Shown here piece after piece: positions 39,354 through 60,378 of a stretch of DNA of 64,000 nt. A program made the translations under genes and the position numbers. Source of the stretch: Egicoccus sp. AB-alg2 (GTDB lineage Bacteria > Actinomycetota > Nitriliruptoria > Nitriliruptorales > Nitriliruptoraceae); NCBI RefSeq assembly GCF_041821065.1, contig NZ_JBGUAX010000007.1:186001-250000 (forward strand). Reading direction: 5' to 3'. Numbering within the stretch: the first letter of the stretch is position 1; each line of letters opens with the position of its first letter. The notes under the pieces are model-generated. The model saw only the letters and a program-made list of their open reading frames with translations. It ran no database searches and had not been told where the DNA came from.

Positions 39354-39383
39354 TTTCCACACCTGTGGACGCTGTTGTGGACA
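39354..39383. promoter_or_regulatory. DnaA-box group in the dnaA leader
   Basis: TTTCCACA (39354-39361), TGTGGAC (39364-39370) and TTGTGGACA (39375-39383) are three box-like sequences in 30 bp. They lie about 100 bp before the dnaA start. Confidence 0.65.
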
Positions 39384-41132: not shown

Positions 41133-41509
41133 CCCATCCACAGTTTCCACAGTCGGCTGTGGACAGCCCGTGGACCGGCCTCGGGACGAGGTGTGCACGA
41201 ACGGTGGACACCGGGGGGTCGGTCGTGGACGGACTGAGGACGGCGGTCTCGCACCGGTGGTGGACGAGGCGTGGACAGGTGGTGGAGAATGTCGGGGCGC
41301 CGTGGAAGCACGCCGATGTGATTCGTCGGGCTGGGGATGCCGACGTCGTTCGTCCCCACACCGTCCACGCCACCGAAACCCCGTTTGACCTGCAGGAACA
41401 AGCCATCATCCACACCGTCCACACCCCCTACGAAGACCACGGGATCTCTCTGTTCTCTCTGGTCTTCCATCAGCGGTGTGCACAACCGCACCGGTAGAGA
41501 GGAAGCCAC
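41133..41509. other. oriC: oriC: dnaA-dnaN intergenic region with DnaA boxes
   Basis: This 377-bp spacer lies in the standard actinobacterial oriC position. Strict TCCACA/TGTGGA cores occur at 41137, 41146, 41158, 41409 and 41418. The variant TGTGCACAA is at 41477-41485, and many GTGGAC half-matches lie between. Boxes in the left half mostly read on the minus strand and those in the right half on the plus strand. A pyrimidine-rich stretch (41445-41467) precedes dnaN. The box assignment is by eye. Confidence 0.85.
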
Positions 41510-49774: not shown

Positions 49775-52483
<2,709 letters not shown>

Positions 52484-53753: not shown

Positions 53754-54053
53754 ATGGCCAAGACCGAGAAGCTCAGCAAGAAGGTCGCGAAGCTCGAGAA
53801 GAAGGCCGACGCGCTGCGCAAGCAGGCGGAGAAGAAGGGCAAGCAGCTCACCTCCCAGGCCGGCGACACGTTCGACACCCTCACCAAGGAGGCCAAGTCG
53901 CGCGTCGGCAAGGAGCAGGAGGAGGAGTCCGGCGGCGGCAAGGGCCGTTTCGCCCTGCTGCTGGCGGTGCTCGCCGGGGTCGCCGTGGCCCTGAAGCGCA
54001 AGCGTGACCAGGAGCTCGACGAGGCCCTCTGGGAAGAGCCCCGCTCGGTCTGA
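53754..54053 (+). CDS. Lys-rich coiled-coil membrane protein
   Basis: This is a 99-residue protein starting at ATG 53754 after GGGGAGG. Residues 1-35 are a heptad-like Lys/Glu/Ala coiled coil (KLSKKVAKLEKKADALRKQA), then a charged linker, one TM helix (RFALLLAVLAGVAVALKR) and an acidic end. It resembles small actinobacterial envelope or nucleoid-associated proteins of unknown role. A TAGGCT -10 lies at 53697-53702. Two hairpins terminate it. Confidence 0.7.
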   Translation: MAKTEKLSKKVAKLEKKADALRKQAEKKGKQLTSQAGDTFDTLTKEAKSRVGKEQEEESGGGKGRFALLLAVLAGVAVALKRKRDQELDEALWEEPRSV

Positions 54054-54083: not shown

Positions 54084-54115
54084 GCGTCGCGGCGGATGAC
54101 CGCCGCGACGCTTTT
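54084..54115 (+). terminator. Strong intrinsic terminator with U-tract
   Basis: GCGTCGCGGCGG (54084-54095), loop ATGA, CCGCCGCGACGC (54100-54111), then TTTT: a perfect 12-bp stem with a U-tract. The T-run abuts the stop codon of the convergent MarR gene. Confidence 0.9.
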
Positions 54116-54642
54116 CACCGCTGGCCCGGTCCGCCGTCCTGGTGGCCGGGCCGCGTGCGTGTCCGCTCCGGCGGCCGGTCGGCAGCCGGCAGCTCCAAGG
54201 AGCGCACCAGCGCGTCGAGGAAGCGCTCGACCACCCGTTGCTCGGCCTCGGACAGCCCGGCGACGACTCGGTCGATGCGACCCACCAGCTCCCCGAAGTA
54301 GCCGCCCGCGGTCGCCCTGGCGGTCGGACTGATGCCGATGCGGCGTCGCCGGCGGTCGTGCCGATCCGGCCGACGCTGCACGTGTCCCGCCCGCTCCAGC
54401 CGGTCCACCAGCCGCGTCGTCGCCCCGGTCGACAGCTGCAGGGCCTTGGCGAGTTCGCCGGCGGTCATCGGTCCGTCGGCGCGGGCGAGCAGCGACAGCG
54501 CCTGCAGGTCGGTGGGATGCAGGTGCTCCCGGGCGGCGAACCGGGTCCCGGCCGCATGCATCTGTGTGCCCACGGCGTGCAGCAGGGCCACGATGGCGCT
54601 CGCGACGGAGCGGTCCGCTGGCCGCGGGTGCTGCTGTCCCAT
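54115..54642 (-). CDS. MarR family transcriptional regulator
   Basis: This is a 175-residue winged-helix protein. The start ATG 54642 (MGQQHPRPADRS) is preferred to an Arg-rich upstream extension. The helix-turn-helix is around residues 60-90 (MTAGELAKALQLSTGATTRL), with the wing HVQRRPDRHDRRRRRIGI. The C-terminal helices end in a Pro/Arg-rich tail. It is convergent with the coiled-coil gene. No obvious divergent target gene lies next to it; the ABC operon downstream is on the same strand upstream of it and has its own TetR. Confidence 0.82.
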   Translation of the reverse strand: MGQQHPRPADRSVASAIVALLHAVGTQMHAAGTRFAAREHLHPTDLQALSLLARADGPMTAGELAKALQLSTGATTRLVDRLERAGHVQRRPDRHDRRRRRIGISPTARATAGGYFGELVGRIDRVVAGLSEAEQRVVERFLDALVRSLELPAADRPPERTRTRPGHQDGGPGQR

Positions 54643-54823
54643 GGAGGCCGTCCGATGCCGAGGCCGCACGAAGCCGCCACGGCGTCGGCCGCGCCGGCGC
54701 CGCCGCACGTTCCTCCGCGCGCCAGCGGTTCGGACCCACGGTCGGGGCCGGTCGGGTCCGTGGACCCGGACGTGCGGAGGGTGCCGGCCGGCGACGACCG
54801 CCTCGGGCGGACCGGCGCCGCGC

Positions 54824-55498
54824 TCAGCCGGTGATGCGGCCGTCGACGATCTCCACCACCCGGTCCCCCAGGTCGGTCACGCGCTCGTCGTGGGTCACCA
54901 CCACCGACGCCACCCCCCGGTCCTTGACCTCCGAGCGCAGCAGCTCCATGACCTGGCGGCCGAGCTTGGAGTCCAGCGCCGACGTCGGCTCGTCCACCAG
55001 CACCAGCGCGGGGTCGTTCATCAGCGCGCGGCCGATCGCGACCCGCTGGCGTTGCCCGCCGGAGAGCGCGCTCGGCAGGTTGCCGGCCCGGTCCGCCAGC
55101 CCGAGCTCCTCCAGCAGGTCGTCGGCGCGACGCCTGGCCCCGGCGTCCACCCGGCCGCCGCCGAGCTCGCGGACCGCCAGCAGGTTCTCGCGTGCGGTCA
55201 GGAACGGCACCAGGTTGACGTTCTGGAACACGAACCCGATGCGCTCACGCCGGAAGCGGGCCAGTTCCTTCTCCTTCAGCCGGCCGACCTCGTCGCCGCC
55301 GACCGTGATGCGTCCGCGGTCGGCCGCGAGCAGGGCGCCGGCCACCGTCAACAGCGTGGTCTTGCCCGATCCCGACGGACCCATGAGCAGCAGCATCTCG
55401 CCGTCGTCGACCTGCAGGTGCACGTCATCGAGCGCCACGACCTCCTGGTCGCCGGCGCGGTAGGTCTTGCGGACCTCTTGCAGTTCGAGCGCGGGCAT
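54824..55498 (-). CDS. ABC exporter ATP-binding protein (LolD/MacB type)
   Basis: This 224-residue nucleotide-binding subunit has a Walker A GPSGSGKTTLL near 40, Q-loop FQNVNLVPFLT, signature [15 protein letters not shown], Walker B LVLVDEPTSALD and the switch His in VVTHDERV. The sequence is of the type paired with FtsX-like permeases. It lies behind two such permease genes in a three-gene leftward operon (57818 to 54824) started from the TetR-controlled promoter at 57826-57854. Confidence 0.9.
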   Translation of the reverse strand: MPALELQEVRKTYRAGDQEVVALDDVHLQVDDGEMLLLMGPSGSGKTTLLTVAGALLAADRGRITVGGDEVGRLKEKELARFRRERIGFVFQNVNLVPFLTARENLLAVRELGGGRVDAGARRRADDLLEELGLADRAGNLPSALSGGQRQRVAIGRALMNDPALVLVDEPTSALDSKLGRQVMELLRSEVKDRGVASVVVTHDERVTDLGDRVVEIVDGRITG

Positions 55499-55596
55499 CG
55501 GGGTCTCCTGGGAGCGTTGCGGGCGGGCAGGCGGCGCGGACGGGTGGGCGGTACGGGGAGGTGGACGACGCAGACGCCTTCACGGTGCGCGCCGGG

Positions 55597-56691
55597 TCAG
55601 CCGATGGCCCGGGCGGGATCGATGCGCAGGATGCGGCGCAGCACGAGAGCGACCCCCAGGACCGAGGTCAGCAGCGTGGCGACGGCGATGGTCGCCAGCC
55701 GTTGCGGCTCGAGCCGGACGGGCAGGTCGGCGGGCAGCGCCGCCACGATCGCGACGGAGGCGAGCCCCCCGACGACCAGGGCGGCGACGGCGATCACCAG
55801 CGCCTGGACGATGACGCCGGCGACCAGGTCGCGCGAGCGGCCACCGATCGCCTTCAACACGGCGTACAGCCGGGCCCGCTCCAGGATCAACAGGGCGAAG
55901 AAGAGCGCCACCACCAGCAGCACGACCACGAACGTGATGCCGATGATCCCCTGGAACGTGGCCGACTGCTGGGCGACGACCGGTTGCCCGTCGACCAGCC
56001 CGGCCAGGTCGACGGTGGTGGTCGAGCCGGTCGCCTCGTCGATGAGGGCCGCGAGCGTCACGGGATCGGTCCCCTCCGCCGGCGTGACCACCAGCGCCTG
56101 CACCGTGCCGGGCGGCAGGGCCGCCTGGGGGGCGGCCGAACGCTGCAGCTCACGCCAGGCGTCCAGGTCGAGCCAGGCCGTGACGGCGCCCTGTGACACG
56201 TCGTCGGCGATCGCGGTGATGGTCACGGGTTCGTTGCCCGGACCGATGCGCAGCTCGTCCCCGACCTCGCCGGTCGTCAGCCGGGACAGCTGCGCGTCCA
56301 GCACCGCCTCCCCGGCACCCGGCGGGTCGGGCGGTACCTCGGTGCCCGTCTCGTAGCCGAAGACGGCGAGGTCGACCACCTCGCCGCTGTCCGGCACCGT
56401 GCCCGTGGTCACGAACGACGCGATGCCGCCGATCTCGGCCACCCCGTCGACGCCGGCCACGGTCTCGGCGACGTCCTCGTCGAGCAACGAGCGGCCGAGC
56501 TGCAGCTCGGCGCCGTCGTCGATGACCCACAGCCGCTCGCCCTGGGCGCGGAAAGCGCCGGTCTGATTGAGCTCGAGGCCGTCGAGGAAGCCGCCGAGGA
56601 CGACCAACAGGACGACCAGCAGCGTCATGGCGAGACCCACCGGCAGGAACCGGCCGGGGCGGCGTCGCAGTTCACGGAGCGTGAGGCGCAT
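55597..56691 (-). CDS. FtsX/MacB-like ABC permease
   Basis: This 364-residue protein starts at ATG 56691 (MRLTLRELRRRPGRFLPVGL). One N-terminal TM helix, an outer MacB-PCD-like domain of about 200 residues, and three C-terminal helices (the ILERARLYAVLKAIGGRSRDL coupling segment included) are the FtsX plan. It works with the adjacent ATPase and the second permease, probably as a heterodimer exporting a peptide, lipid or drug; the substrate is unknown. Confidence 0.87.
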   Translation of the reverse strand: MRLTLRELRRRPGRFLPVGLAMTLLVVLLVVLGGFLDGLELNQTGAFRAQGERLWVIDDGAELQLGRSLLDEDVAETVAGVDGVAEIGGIASFVTTGTVPDSGEVVDLAVFGYETGTEVPPDPPGAGEAVLDAQLSRLTTGEVGDELRIGPGNEPVTITAIADDVSQGAVTAWLDLDAWRELQRSAAPQAALPPGTVQALVVTPAEGTDPVTLAALIDEATGSTTTVDLAGLVDGQPVVAQQSATFQGIIGITFVVVLLVVALFFALLILERARLYAVLKAIGGRSRDLVAGVIVQALVIAVAALVVGGLASVAIVAALPADLPVRLEPQRLATIAVATLLTSVLGVALVLRRILRIDPARAIG

Positions 56692-56702
56692 GGTCGTCTC
56701 CC

Positions 56703-57818
56703 TCAGCCGAGCCCGGCGGCCTGGGTGGCCTCGACCGGTTCGATCTGCAGGACACGCCGGATGGCGCCGCTGGCCGCGATCACGCCCAGGACCAGGACCG
56801 CGGCCGCCGACGCGGCGATGGTCGAGACCGCCAGCTCCGAACCGAACAGGTCCTGCGTCGCACGCAGCAGCCCGACGGCCAGGCCGGTCCCCAGCAGGAC
56901 TCCGAGCCCGACGACCGTGAGCACCTGTGCGAGCACGAGGCGAACCACGTCGGCGCGCTCGGCCCCGACCGCCCGGAGCAGCACCAGCGCGTCCCGCTTC
57001 TGGACCGTCAGGATCAGGAAGAACACGCCCGTGACGATCGTGACGACGACGTAGAGCAGCACGTAGAGGATGCCGAACGAGCGGCTGATGAGGTCCACGC
57101 CCGGCAGCGCGTCGACCGCTTCCGCGCGGGTCAGCGCCTGGACGTCCGGCACCCGGTCGGCGATGTCCTGGGCCAGGACCTCGACAGCCACCCCGTCGGC
57201 GGCGCGGACGGCCACGAACGAGGCCGGCGCCGCACCGCCCGGCCCGAGCCGGTCGGCCAGCGCCTGCTCGTAGGTGTCGAAGGGCACGTACAGGGTGGTG
57301 GCGACGTTGTAGCTCGCGTCCGCGGCGATGCCGACCACCTCGACGTCGAGGTCGTCGCCGACCTGCACGGTGGCGCCGACGGGGAAGTCCTCGCCGAACC
57401 CGCCGCTGGAGGCCAGGGCTTCGCCGGGCGCCGTCGGCAGCCGCCCCTCGGCGATCGCCGAGGGGGAGCCGGGCGCCCCCGGCGTGATGCCGACGAGGAT
57501 CGCCTCCTCCTCGACCCCGCCGGACGCCGCGACCACGAAGGTCTGTGCGACGGCGGCGGCCTCGGCGACGCCCGACACCCGGGACACCTCGTCGACCGTG
57601 GTCATGGGCAGCACCGACACCACGGGGTTGGCCCGCGCGGTCGCGTCGTAGACGACGACGTCGGCGTCGGCCTGTTCGAGCCCACCCGTGAACCCGGCCA
57701 GCAACGAACCAGCGACGGACTGGAAGAACAGCAGCAGGAACACCAGCAGCCCGACGGCGCCGGCCAGCAGGACGAACCGCAGCTTGGACCGGCGGATCTC
57801 TCTCAGGGCGAGTCTCAT
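56703..57818 (-). CDS. FtsX/MacB-like ABC permease
   Basis: This is a 371-residue protein with the same topology as its downstream neighbour: MRLALREIRRSKLRFVLLAG, an outer domain, then three helices with QKRDALVLLRAVGAERADVV. ATG 57818 is seven bases after a GATACT -10 box, so the mRNA may be leaderless. It is the first gene of the ABC operon, 11 bases before the second permease gene, divergent from the TetR gene. Confidence 0.88.
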   Translation of the reverse strand: MRLALREIRRSKLRFVLLAGAVGLLVFLLLFFQSVAGSLLAGFTGGLEQADADVVVYDATARANPVVSVLPMTTVDEVSRVSGVAEAAAVAQTFVVAASGGVEEEAILVGITPGAPGSPSAIAEGRLPTAPGEALASSGGFGEDFPVGATVQVGDDLDVEVVGIAADASYNVATTLYVPFDTYEQALADRLGPGGAAPASFVAVRAADGVAVEVLAQDIADRVPDVQALTRAEAVDALPGVDLISRSFGILYVLLYVVVTIVTGVFFLILTVQKRDALVLLRAVGAERADVVRLVLAQVLTVVGLGVLLGTGLAVGLLRATQDLFGSELAVSTIAASAAAVLVLGVIAASGAIRRVLQIEPVEATQAAGLG

Positions 57819-57825
57819 ACGGGGC

Positions 57826-57854
57826 AGTATCACGACACTCTGTCGTGTTGTCAA
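57826..57854 (-). promoter_or_regulatory. TetR operator nested inside the ABC-operon promoter
   Basis: On the minus strand, TTGACA (57854-57849), 17 bp, then GATACT (57831-57826) makes a near-consensus sigma-A promoter. Between the two hexamers lies the palindrome CACGACA-CTC-TGTCGTG (57831-57847). A further GTGTCGTG half-site follows at 57859-57866. A repressor bound there would block RNA polymerase. Confidence 0.8.
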
Positions 57855-57895
57855 CACCGTGTCGTGAAAGCTCGCGGCGCGCTAGGCTGCGCGGC

Positions 57896-58495
57896 ATGCC
57901 GTCCATCTGGGGAGAGACACTCGGCGAGCACCGGGCGTTGGTGCTCGACCGGCTGGTGGACGCCTTCGCCCAGCTCGTGCGCGAGCGCGGATTCGAGGCG
58001 ACCACCATGGCCGCGGTGGCCGAACGGGCCGGCCTCGCCCGCAGCGCCGTCTACAACCACGTACGCGACAAGCACGACCTGCTGCTGACGCACACCGCCC
58101 GGGTCCTGGAGCGCACGGCCGCCGACCTGCAGGCCGCGCTGGACGCCGAAGAAGGTGTGGAGCGCAAGCTCGCCCGCTTCGTGCACGTGACCTTCCACAG
58201 CTGGGCCGCGGAACCCGGCGCCGGGCACGACGTCATGGCGAGCCTCGACGAGGACGAGCGCGAACGGCTCCTCCGTCAGCTCGCGCCGATGGGGCAGATG
58301 CTGGCGGACGTCCTGCGCGACGGGGTTCAGAGCGGTGAGCTGGCGGGGGGCCAACCCGAGGAGCTCGCGCGCTTCGTCTTCGCGACCCTGGAGGGCTACC
58401 GCCTGGCCATTGCCTCCGGGGAACTCGATCCGGACCGCACGGCACAGCAGGTGACCCGGCTGGTGCTGCACGGGGTCATCGGCACGCCGGGCTGA
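57896..58495 (+). CDS. TetR family transcriptional regulator
   Basis: This is a 199-residue repressor. The N-terminal helix-turn-helix is FEATTMAAVAERAGLARSAVYNHVRDK at about 35-60 (motif given in part: TTMAAVAERAGLARSAVY), with a ligand-binding C-terminal domain. ATG 57896 follows a TAGGCT -10 (57883-57888) by seven bases, consistent with a leaderless transcript. It is divergent from the ABC exporter operon, whose promoter contains a palindromic operator, so it probably represses that operon until an exported ligand binds it. Confidence 0.87.
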   Translation: MPSIWGETLGEHRALVLDRLVDAFAQLVRERGFEATTMAAVAERAGLARSAVYNHVRDKHDLLLTHTARVLERTAADLQAALDAEEGVERKLARFVHVTFHSWAAEPGAGHDVMASLDEDERERLLRQLAPMGQMLADVLRDGVQSGELAGGQPEELARFVFATLEGYRLAIASGELDPDRTAQQVTRLVLHGVIGTPG

Positions 58496-58630: not shown

Positions 58631-58704
58631 ACTTCCACAGGTGTGACCACAGGTGTGGAAGTCCAGGCGTGTTCCTCGTCCACATCCCCACAGGTTTGTC
58701 CACA
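58631..58704. promoter_or_regulatory. Cluster of DnaA-box-like sequences upstream of the peptide ABC operon
   Basis: In 74 bp there are four exact TCCACA/TGTGGA cores (58634, 58654, 58679, and TTGTCCACA at 58696-58704) and two near matches (58646, 58687). The first pair is embedded in an inverted repeat, ACTTCCAC (58631-58638) with GTGGAAGT (58655-58662). The same segment also holds an 11-bp direct repeat CCACAGGTGTG at 58635 and 58647. The remainder of the 58496-58794 gap shows only a TAGGGT -10 (58776-58781). Confidence 0.65.
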
Positions 58705-58794: not shown

Positions 58795-60378
58795 ATGTCA
58801 GGGATGCTCGTGCGCACTCGTGTTCTGGCCCTGTCCGCTGCGTTCGCGCTCTTGCTCACCGCCTGTGGGGACGGCGGCGGGGGCGTGGACCTCGACGACC
58901 CGGGCGCGGAGCCCGACACCGGGGATCCCGGCGTCGAGGGCGAGGGCGAGGCCGCCGGCCCGGAAGGTGGGACGCTCGTCGCGGCCATCGGCGGGGAACC
59001 CGACCAGCTCAACCCGCTGACGACGACCTCGTCGTTCGCGTTCACCGTGCTGGAGAACGTGTACGACACGCTGGTGCAGCCCGGCGAGGACCTGCAGATG
59101 GAGCCCGCGCTCGCCGAGTCGTGGGAGACCTCCGACGACCTGCTGACCTGGGTATTCACCCTGCGTGAGGGCGTGACGTTCCACGACGGCTCCGAGCTGA
59201 CGGCGGACGACGTCGTGGCTTCGATGGAGTACATCCGTGACGAGGGTGCCAACGGCTGGCGGCTGGAGGCCGTCGACGCGTTCGAGGCGACCGACGACTA
59301 CACGGTCACGATGAACCTCAACCGTCCGGCGCCCAACCTGCTCGAGCAGCTCGGGCCCTTCAAGGGCATGGCGATCGTGCCGTCCGAGGCGATCGAGGGC
59401 GGCACGCTGGGTGACGAGGTGGTTGGAACGGGGCCGTTCCAGCTGACCTCGGCCAGCGCCGACGTCATCCAACTCGAGGCCTACGGCGACTACTGGGGCG
59501 AGGGCCCGTACCTCGACGGCATCGAGTTCCGGATCATCCCGGACGAGGGCGTGAAGCTCACCAACCTGGAGACCGGCGAGGTCGACTGGATCGACTCGGT
59601 CCCGCCGGAGCAGGTCGTCGACCTCGAGGGCCGTGACGACCTCGTGATCGGTCGCACCCCCGGCAACGACTACTGGTACATGGCGCTCAACAACGAACGC
59701 GAGCCCTTCGACGAGGTCGAGGTGCGGCGCGCCATCGCGTTCGCGCTCGACCCGGCCGCCATCGCCGAGGCCACCAACTTCGACGCCGCCACGCCCAACG
59801 AGACCGCGATCCCCGAGGGCAGCTTCTGGTACCACGAGTACGCGCCCTTCGGGCACGACCCGGAGCAGGCACAGCAACTGCTCGACGAGGCCGGCGTCGA
59901 CGGGTTGTCGATCGACCTCATGGTCACCAACGAGTTCCCGGAGACGGTGACCGGCGCGCAGGTGATCGCGAGCCAGCTCGGCGAGGTGGGCATCGACGTC
60001 CGAATCCGTACCGAGGACTTCACGACCTGGCTGGCCGATCAGGGCGAGGGCGACTTCGACGCCTTCATGCTCGGTTGGCTCGGCAACATCGACCCGGACG
60101 ACTTCTACTACGCCCAGCACCATTCCGAGGGCGTGAACAACTTCCAGGGCTTCGCGGACCCCGAGGTGGACCAGCTGCTCGACGACGCACGGGTCGAGGT
60201 CGACGACGACGCTCGCAAGGAGCTGTACGACCAGGCGGCCGAGCGCATCGTCGACCAGGCGTCGTACATCTACTTCTACAACCCCGACATCGTCGAGGCC
60301 TGGTCGCCGGCCGTGAGCGGCTACGAGACCCGGGCCGACTCGGCGACCCGTTTCGTGGACACCCGTATCGAGAACTGA
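58795..60378 (+). CDS. Peptide/dipeptide ABC transporter substrate-binding lipoprotein
   Basis: This 527-residue protein starts at ATG 58795; ATG 58804 is possible. The signal peptide ends in the lipobox LLTACGD, so it is a lipoprotein. An acidic Gly/Glu linker of about 40 residues precedes the SBP_bac_5 domain (GGEPDQLNPLTTTSSFAFTV, LTWVFTLREGVTFHDGSEL), which ends in IYFYNPDIVEAWSP. It captures oligopeptides or similar ligands outside the cell and delivers them to the DppB/DppC-like permeases encoded downstream. A hairpin follows the gene. Confidence 0.92.
   Translation: MSGMLVRTRVLALSAAFALLLTACGDGGGGVDLDDPGAEPDTGDPGVEGEGEAAGPEGGTLVAAIGGEPDQLNPLTTTSSFAFTVLENVYDTLVQPGEDLQMEPALAESWETSDDLLTWVFTLREGVTFHDGSELTADDVVASMEYIRDEGANGWRLEAVDAFEATDDYTVTMNLNRPAPNLLEQLGPFKGMAIVPSEAIEGGTLGDEVVGTGPFQLTSASADVIQLEAYGDYWGEGPYLDGIEFRIIPDEGVKLTNLETGEVDWIDSVPPEQVVDLEGRDDLVIGRTPGNDYWYMALNNEREPFDEVEVRRAIAFALDPAAIAEATNFDAATPNETAIPEGSFWYHEYAPFGHDPEQAQQLLDEAGVDGLSIDLMVTNEFPETVTGAQVIASQLGEVGIDVRIRTEDFTTWLADQGEGDFDAFMLGWLGNIDPDDFYYAQHHSEGVNNFQGFADPEVDQLLDDARVEVDDDARKELYDQAAERIVDQASYIYFYNPDIVEAWSPAVSGYETRADSATRFVDTRIEN

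Follow-up and report, generated by a model that had tools for sequence, protein, structure and literature searches.

IHF/Fis-dependent systems such as datA and DARS2 have been described mainly from Escherichia coli and its relatives, and to our knowledge the limits placed on replication initiation in Actinobacteria are poorly known. DnaA-box clusters of Streptomyces coelicolor, namely D78, H24 and H69, are said to have been reported by Smulczyk-Krawczyszyn in 2006. According to the literature cited in PMC5742627, untimely initiation in S. coelicolor is repressed by a DnaA-box cluster, and clusters of this kind do so in E. coli and Bacillus subtilis (PMC5742627; PMC5295017), loss of the B. subtilis clusters (DBCs) leading to early initiation (PMC5295017). 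Like the 74-bp array described here, E. coli datA is a non-coding DnaA-box cluster outside oriC whose sequence, spacing and location are conserved within a clade. It serves in the IHF-dependent hydrolysis of DnaA-ATP or in titration, and its loss leads to over-initiation. However, datA depends on IHF and is situated more than 450 kb away from oriC (PMC4451416, PMC4585315), whereas the array lies at 12-28 kb, has a different box order and contains no identified IHF site. The B. subtilis DBCs are also clusters outside the origin, some of them oriC-proximal, but several redundant clusters occur per genome, in contrast to the one strongly conserved two-module copy of the array and the one array beside crgA found here. 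The S. coelicolor clusters D78, H24 and H69 are, like the array, actinobacterial DnaA-box clusters; their locations are not known to match that of the array.

The array is located in the window (the whole 64-kb stretch of DNA that was analysed) at about 17 kb from oriC (the dnaA-dnaN spacer), as the initial annotation had it. It does contain, within 74 bp, the four exact TCCACA/TGTGGA cores and two near matches that had been claimed (Table 1), and it is the densest 80-bp segment of the window for these cores (4 cores), followed by the dnaA promoter and the dnaA-dnaN spacer (3 cores per 80 bp). A density above that of the dnaA-dnaN spacer had also been put forward, which holds per 80 bp (4 versus 3 cores) and against the whole spacer (5 cores in 377 bp) but not locally, as the spacer packs 3 cores into 27 bp. 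Chance indeed gives far fewer: in 12 simulated 400-kb sequences of matched dinucleotide composition, 80-bp segments reached 2 cores at most. The density scan covered one complete 407-kb contig, the whole genome being covered by pattern searches. Instead of many equally dense clusters, this contig, with 104 TCCACA/TGTGGA cores in total, holds just one other 80-bp segment with four cores (C7:281314), and exact TTRTCCACA sites number 12 in the 4.84-Mb genome. By its GC content, size and gene order, this high-GC genome probably belongs to an actinobacterium of the Nitriliruptoria type. The dense DnaA-box cluster is confirmed, and its density, beyond chance and outside oriC, is a stronger observation than first claimed. 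The GC skew of the 407-kb contig is weak, with a minimum near 258 kb and dnaA at 225-227 kb, and does not discriminate between the array and dnaA.

The array is composed of two modules: (i) a triplet of the dnaA-promoter type, with two boxes head-to-tail and a third one opposed, and (ii) a co-oriented trio ending in TTGTCCACA. In brief, boxes A and B are separated by 3 bp (counted between the 9-mers), boxes B and C are opposed with a gap of 2 bp, box D (TCGTCCACA) differs from the perfect TTGTCCACA by 1 base, and several relatives have a full TCCACA at the position of box E. The segment 58631-58662 is nearly palindromic, with arms of 9 bp. Neither a simple terminator nor a sigma-70 promoter was found within the array. 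An RNA element was rejected: a search against Rfam gave only tRNA and a sub-threshold match over the array, and the pairing of the arms is not kept.

Table 1. Coordinates, in the window, of the DnaA-box array, its boxes and modules, and the genes and DnaA-box sites around it.
Feature	Position	Strand	Remarks
DnaA box A, ACTTCCACA	58631..58639	+	core TCCACA 58634-58639; from sequence; core kept in relatives
DnaA box B, weak, GTGACCACA	58643..58651	+	near core CCACA 58647-58651; place set by triplet pattern
DnaA box C	58654..58662	-	core TGTGGA 58654-58659; invariant in 14 relatives
DnaA box D, TCGTCCACA	58676..58684	+	core starts 58679; from sequence and relatives
DnaA box E, weak, ATCCCCACA	58684..58692	+	near core CCACA 58688-58692
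DnaA box F, perfect TTGTCCACA	58696..58704	+	core starts 58699
Triplet module, TCCACA-N7-CCACA-N2-TGTGGA	58634..58659	+	genome-wide pattern search; dnaA promoter box geometry
Head-to-tail trio module, TCCACA-N3-CCACA-N6-TCCACA	58679..58704	+	pattern search
dnaA promoter triplet, same geometry as array triplet	39356..39381	-	opposite strand to dnaA
dnaA	39447..41132	+	Bac_DnaA ATPase and Bac_DnaA_C helix-turn-helix
dnaA-dnaN spacer (oriC) boxes	41134..41426	.	cores 41137, 41146, 41158, 41409, 41418
gyrA, last of the dnaA-dnaN-recF-gyrB-gyrA group	49775..52483	+	
KKxx, small lysine-rich protein of no known family	53754..54053	+	usual upstream neighbour in relatives
SBP, SBP_bac_5 peptide-type ABC substrate-binding protein gene	58795..60378	+	neighbour in ~10/30 genomes only

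The ligand of the array is very likely DnaA, because the boxes of its left half are arranged exactly as in the dnaA promoter, in a geometry found almost only at DnaA-box sites. Indeed, a genome-wide pattern search retrieved the triplet TCCACA-N7-CCACA-N2-TGTGGA only in the array and in the dnaA promoter, and in 41 genomes of the family and class it was located in the dnaA promoter (on the strand opposite to dnaA), in the array or in the array beside crgA. The reversed triplet, used as a control, had no match in these 41 genomes and none in a draw of 198 genomes of the phylum. The triplet itself is present in 63 of these 198 Actinomycetota genomes (about a third), nearly always once per genome, and dnaA was in the expected place beside it at 27 of the 30 loci examined (L174-L203), the other three being L181, which runs to the end of its contig record, L196, which lies beside crgA, and L183. 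The core geometry of the dnaA promoter triplet of Actinomycetota is thus identical to that of the array triplet, but the latter lies away from the dnaA promoter and is joined to a further module. This geometry, the specificity of the trio, the profile matches, the normal helix-turn-helix box-binding domain of the DnaA of this genome (Bac_DnaA_C) and the presence of TTGTCCACA, which is the high-affinity DnaA box of Streptomyces and Mycobacterium (PMC4285127), together make DnaA binding very likely.

The boxes and their spacing are conserved. In a DNA search of 61 genomes with the intergenic region as query, a match was present in all members of the genus, and the array alone, without flanks, was aligned in most of them. 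A profile of the array built from sequence only was searched against 66 genomes of the class and retrieved a single strong copy per genome in 28 of the 35 family members (E<=3e-9), with weaker copies in G005 (1e-7) and G014 (3e-5), which brings the carriers to about 30 of the 35 family genomes. The array is missing, or too weak for profile detection, in the other five (G004, G017, G025, G031 and G033), two of which are poorly complete. Weaker profile matches, as far as they could be placed, are in the dnaA promoter, next to crgA or on the opposite strand of the array. Furthermore, the trio pattern has 19 matches in the 66 genomes, all of them at the array. Identity reaches 96% in the strong cores and 91% in the weak cores, as against 70% in the spacers and 54% in the flanks, a contrast that was not reached in any of 20,000 permutations; invariant core positions are present in the alignment of 14 copies.

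The gene neighbourhood is also largely shared. When the genes are on one contig, they are arranged as dnaA-dnaN-recF-DUF721-gyrB-gyrA-DUF3566-KKxx-(sometimes MarR)-array, on the same strand as dnaA, and the distance from the dnaA start to the array is about 12-28 kb in 10 of the 11 genomes with both on one contig. This tight distance is not universal, since in G005 KKxx and the array are found together (G005:C12:218646-218901) at about 185 kb from dnaA, an arrangement that corresponds to a natural relocation of the pair. The KKxx protein has no match in Pfam or NCBIfam. In the window, MarR, ABC exporter and TetR genes (54115-58495) separate KKxx from the array. G002 and G010, by contrast, have KKxx directly before the array, an indication that the exporter/TetR block came between the two at a later time.

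The array probably helps to control the start of chromosome replication, rather than the adjoining peptide-transport genes, because a single copy is present at the same place in most of the family. On the basis of this comparative analysis, it is fairly probable that the array tunes initiation as a DnaA sink linked to the origin, of the datA/DBC/D78 kind, titration or inactivation of DnaA being, by analogy, a moderately likely outcome. Such a sink is the simplest reading because the array is copied soon after initiation; at 12-28 kb from dnaA, it would be duplicated almost at once. Several DnaA molecules would most likely bind the array cooperatively, the duplicated array would draw DnaA off oriC and the dnaA promoter, and this withdrawal would help to prevent early re-initiation. 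A spacing of 2-3 bp between boxes favours head-to-tail binding in a cooperative manner (PMC8682772), and the pairs A-B and E-F fit it; a high box density near the origin has been described as advantageous for titration (PMC12371093).

Alternatively, DnaA bound at the array could regulate the transcription of a neighbouring gene, either the SBP operon or KKxx, which appears unlikely. Here, about 90 bp separate the end of the array from the SBP gene, and in several relatives the array lies 80-230 bp before SBP. Conservation of the boxes upstream of the orthologous operon, a check that the initial annotation had proposed, is not general: peptide ABC genes adjoin the array in about 10 of the 30 carriers, so that control of peptide uptake, suggested as one role of DnaA at this site, is not the conserved role and the array cannot be regarded as an operator conserved with the operon. 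SBP is not adjacent in G005, G007, G008, G011-G014, G016, G018, G023, G024, G026-G030, G032 and G034, and is 1.3 kb from the array in G022. It is found elsewhere in the genome in G013, G024, G028, G032 and G034, no close orthologue is beside the array in G007, G011, G012, G023, G026 and others, and SBP orthologues also occur without an adjoining array. Control of peptide uptake in this genome itself is possible. As for KKxx, the array has it as a constant neighbour on the upstream side, and such a linkage would also fit a role tied to KKxx; however, the array lies downstream of this gene, away from its promoter.

Another set of explanations is inspired by the DARS loci of E. coli. In a DARS-like reactivation, an opposed pair and a third, co-oriented box would hold ADP-DnaA head-to-head, speed the release of ADP and raise ATP-DnaA before initiation. 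Read on its other strand, the triplet shows a box I, an opposed box II and, 3 bp from II and in the same orientation as II, a box III; this order, orientation and II-III spacing are those of the E. coli DARS1 and DARS2 cores (PMC5742627; PMC8682772). By contrast, the gap between boxes I and II is 2 bp in the array, instead of the 5 bp of E. coli DARS1/2, no IHF/Fis-like partner was identified, and the array has an additional co-oriented trio compared with these cores. Moreover, the same triplet occurs in dnaA promoters, where the usual role of the boxes is autoregulation. DARS-like reactivation is doubtful, with rather little probability. An actinobacterial locus with a DARS-like or dual function is also unlikely: the dnaA-promoter triplet found phylum-wide would have been reused in an origin-linked position and fused to an oligomerising trio, a single array thereby sensing DnaA and switching or sequestering it.

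It is very improbable that the array is the operator of an unrelated dimeric regulator, such as the nearby TetR or MarR, an idea already raised from the inverted repeat. The near-palindrome and the presence of TetR and MarR genes within 5 kb would be consistent with it, but the cores are conserved rather than the palindrome arms, which drift outside the cores without compensation, no TetR gene was found beside the array in the relatives examined, the trio module is not palindromic, and the arrangement matches that of dnaA promoters across the phylum. A TetR operator was also rejected, the TetR gene having its own likely palindrome elsewhere, with a different sequence (CACGACAC...GTGTCGTG at 57832-57866). 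Least probable of all is a secondary origin element, as had been considered, or a detached portion of the origin. The many boxes close to oriC and the known bipartite origins (PMC4285127) could speak for it, but the array lies over 15 kb away from dnaA-dnaN (at 17 kb from the spacer of these genes), this spacer has its own box cluster, and no AT-rich stretch beyond that of the spacer was found at the array.

The other four-core cluster of the contig (C7:281301-281364) adjoins crgA. Within 300 bp of crgA, 85 cores are on the 3' side and 4 on the 5' side at 30 loci of the class, and 52 and 2, respectively, in 27 further actinobacterial genomes (loci L204-L260 in all). The distal triplets of other families were rejected as copies of the array described above, being beside crgA and part of a different array. 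The crgA-side array is a different locus on the same theme that appears across the phylum, where it may be a general control site in the vicinity of a division gene. No paper describing a DnaA-box array beside crgA was found in a literature search.

The 74-bp array, conserved in single copy and with a fixed architecture, offers deletion and binding experiments a well-defined target. Should the DARS-like or dual-function reading be true, the second array, beside the division gene crgA, would couple initiation to division. Furthermore, the resemblance between the array and the dnaA promoter points to a competition of the two for one and the same DnaA complex.
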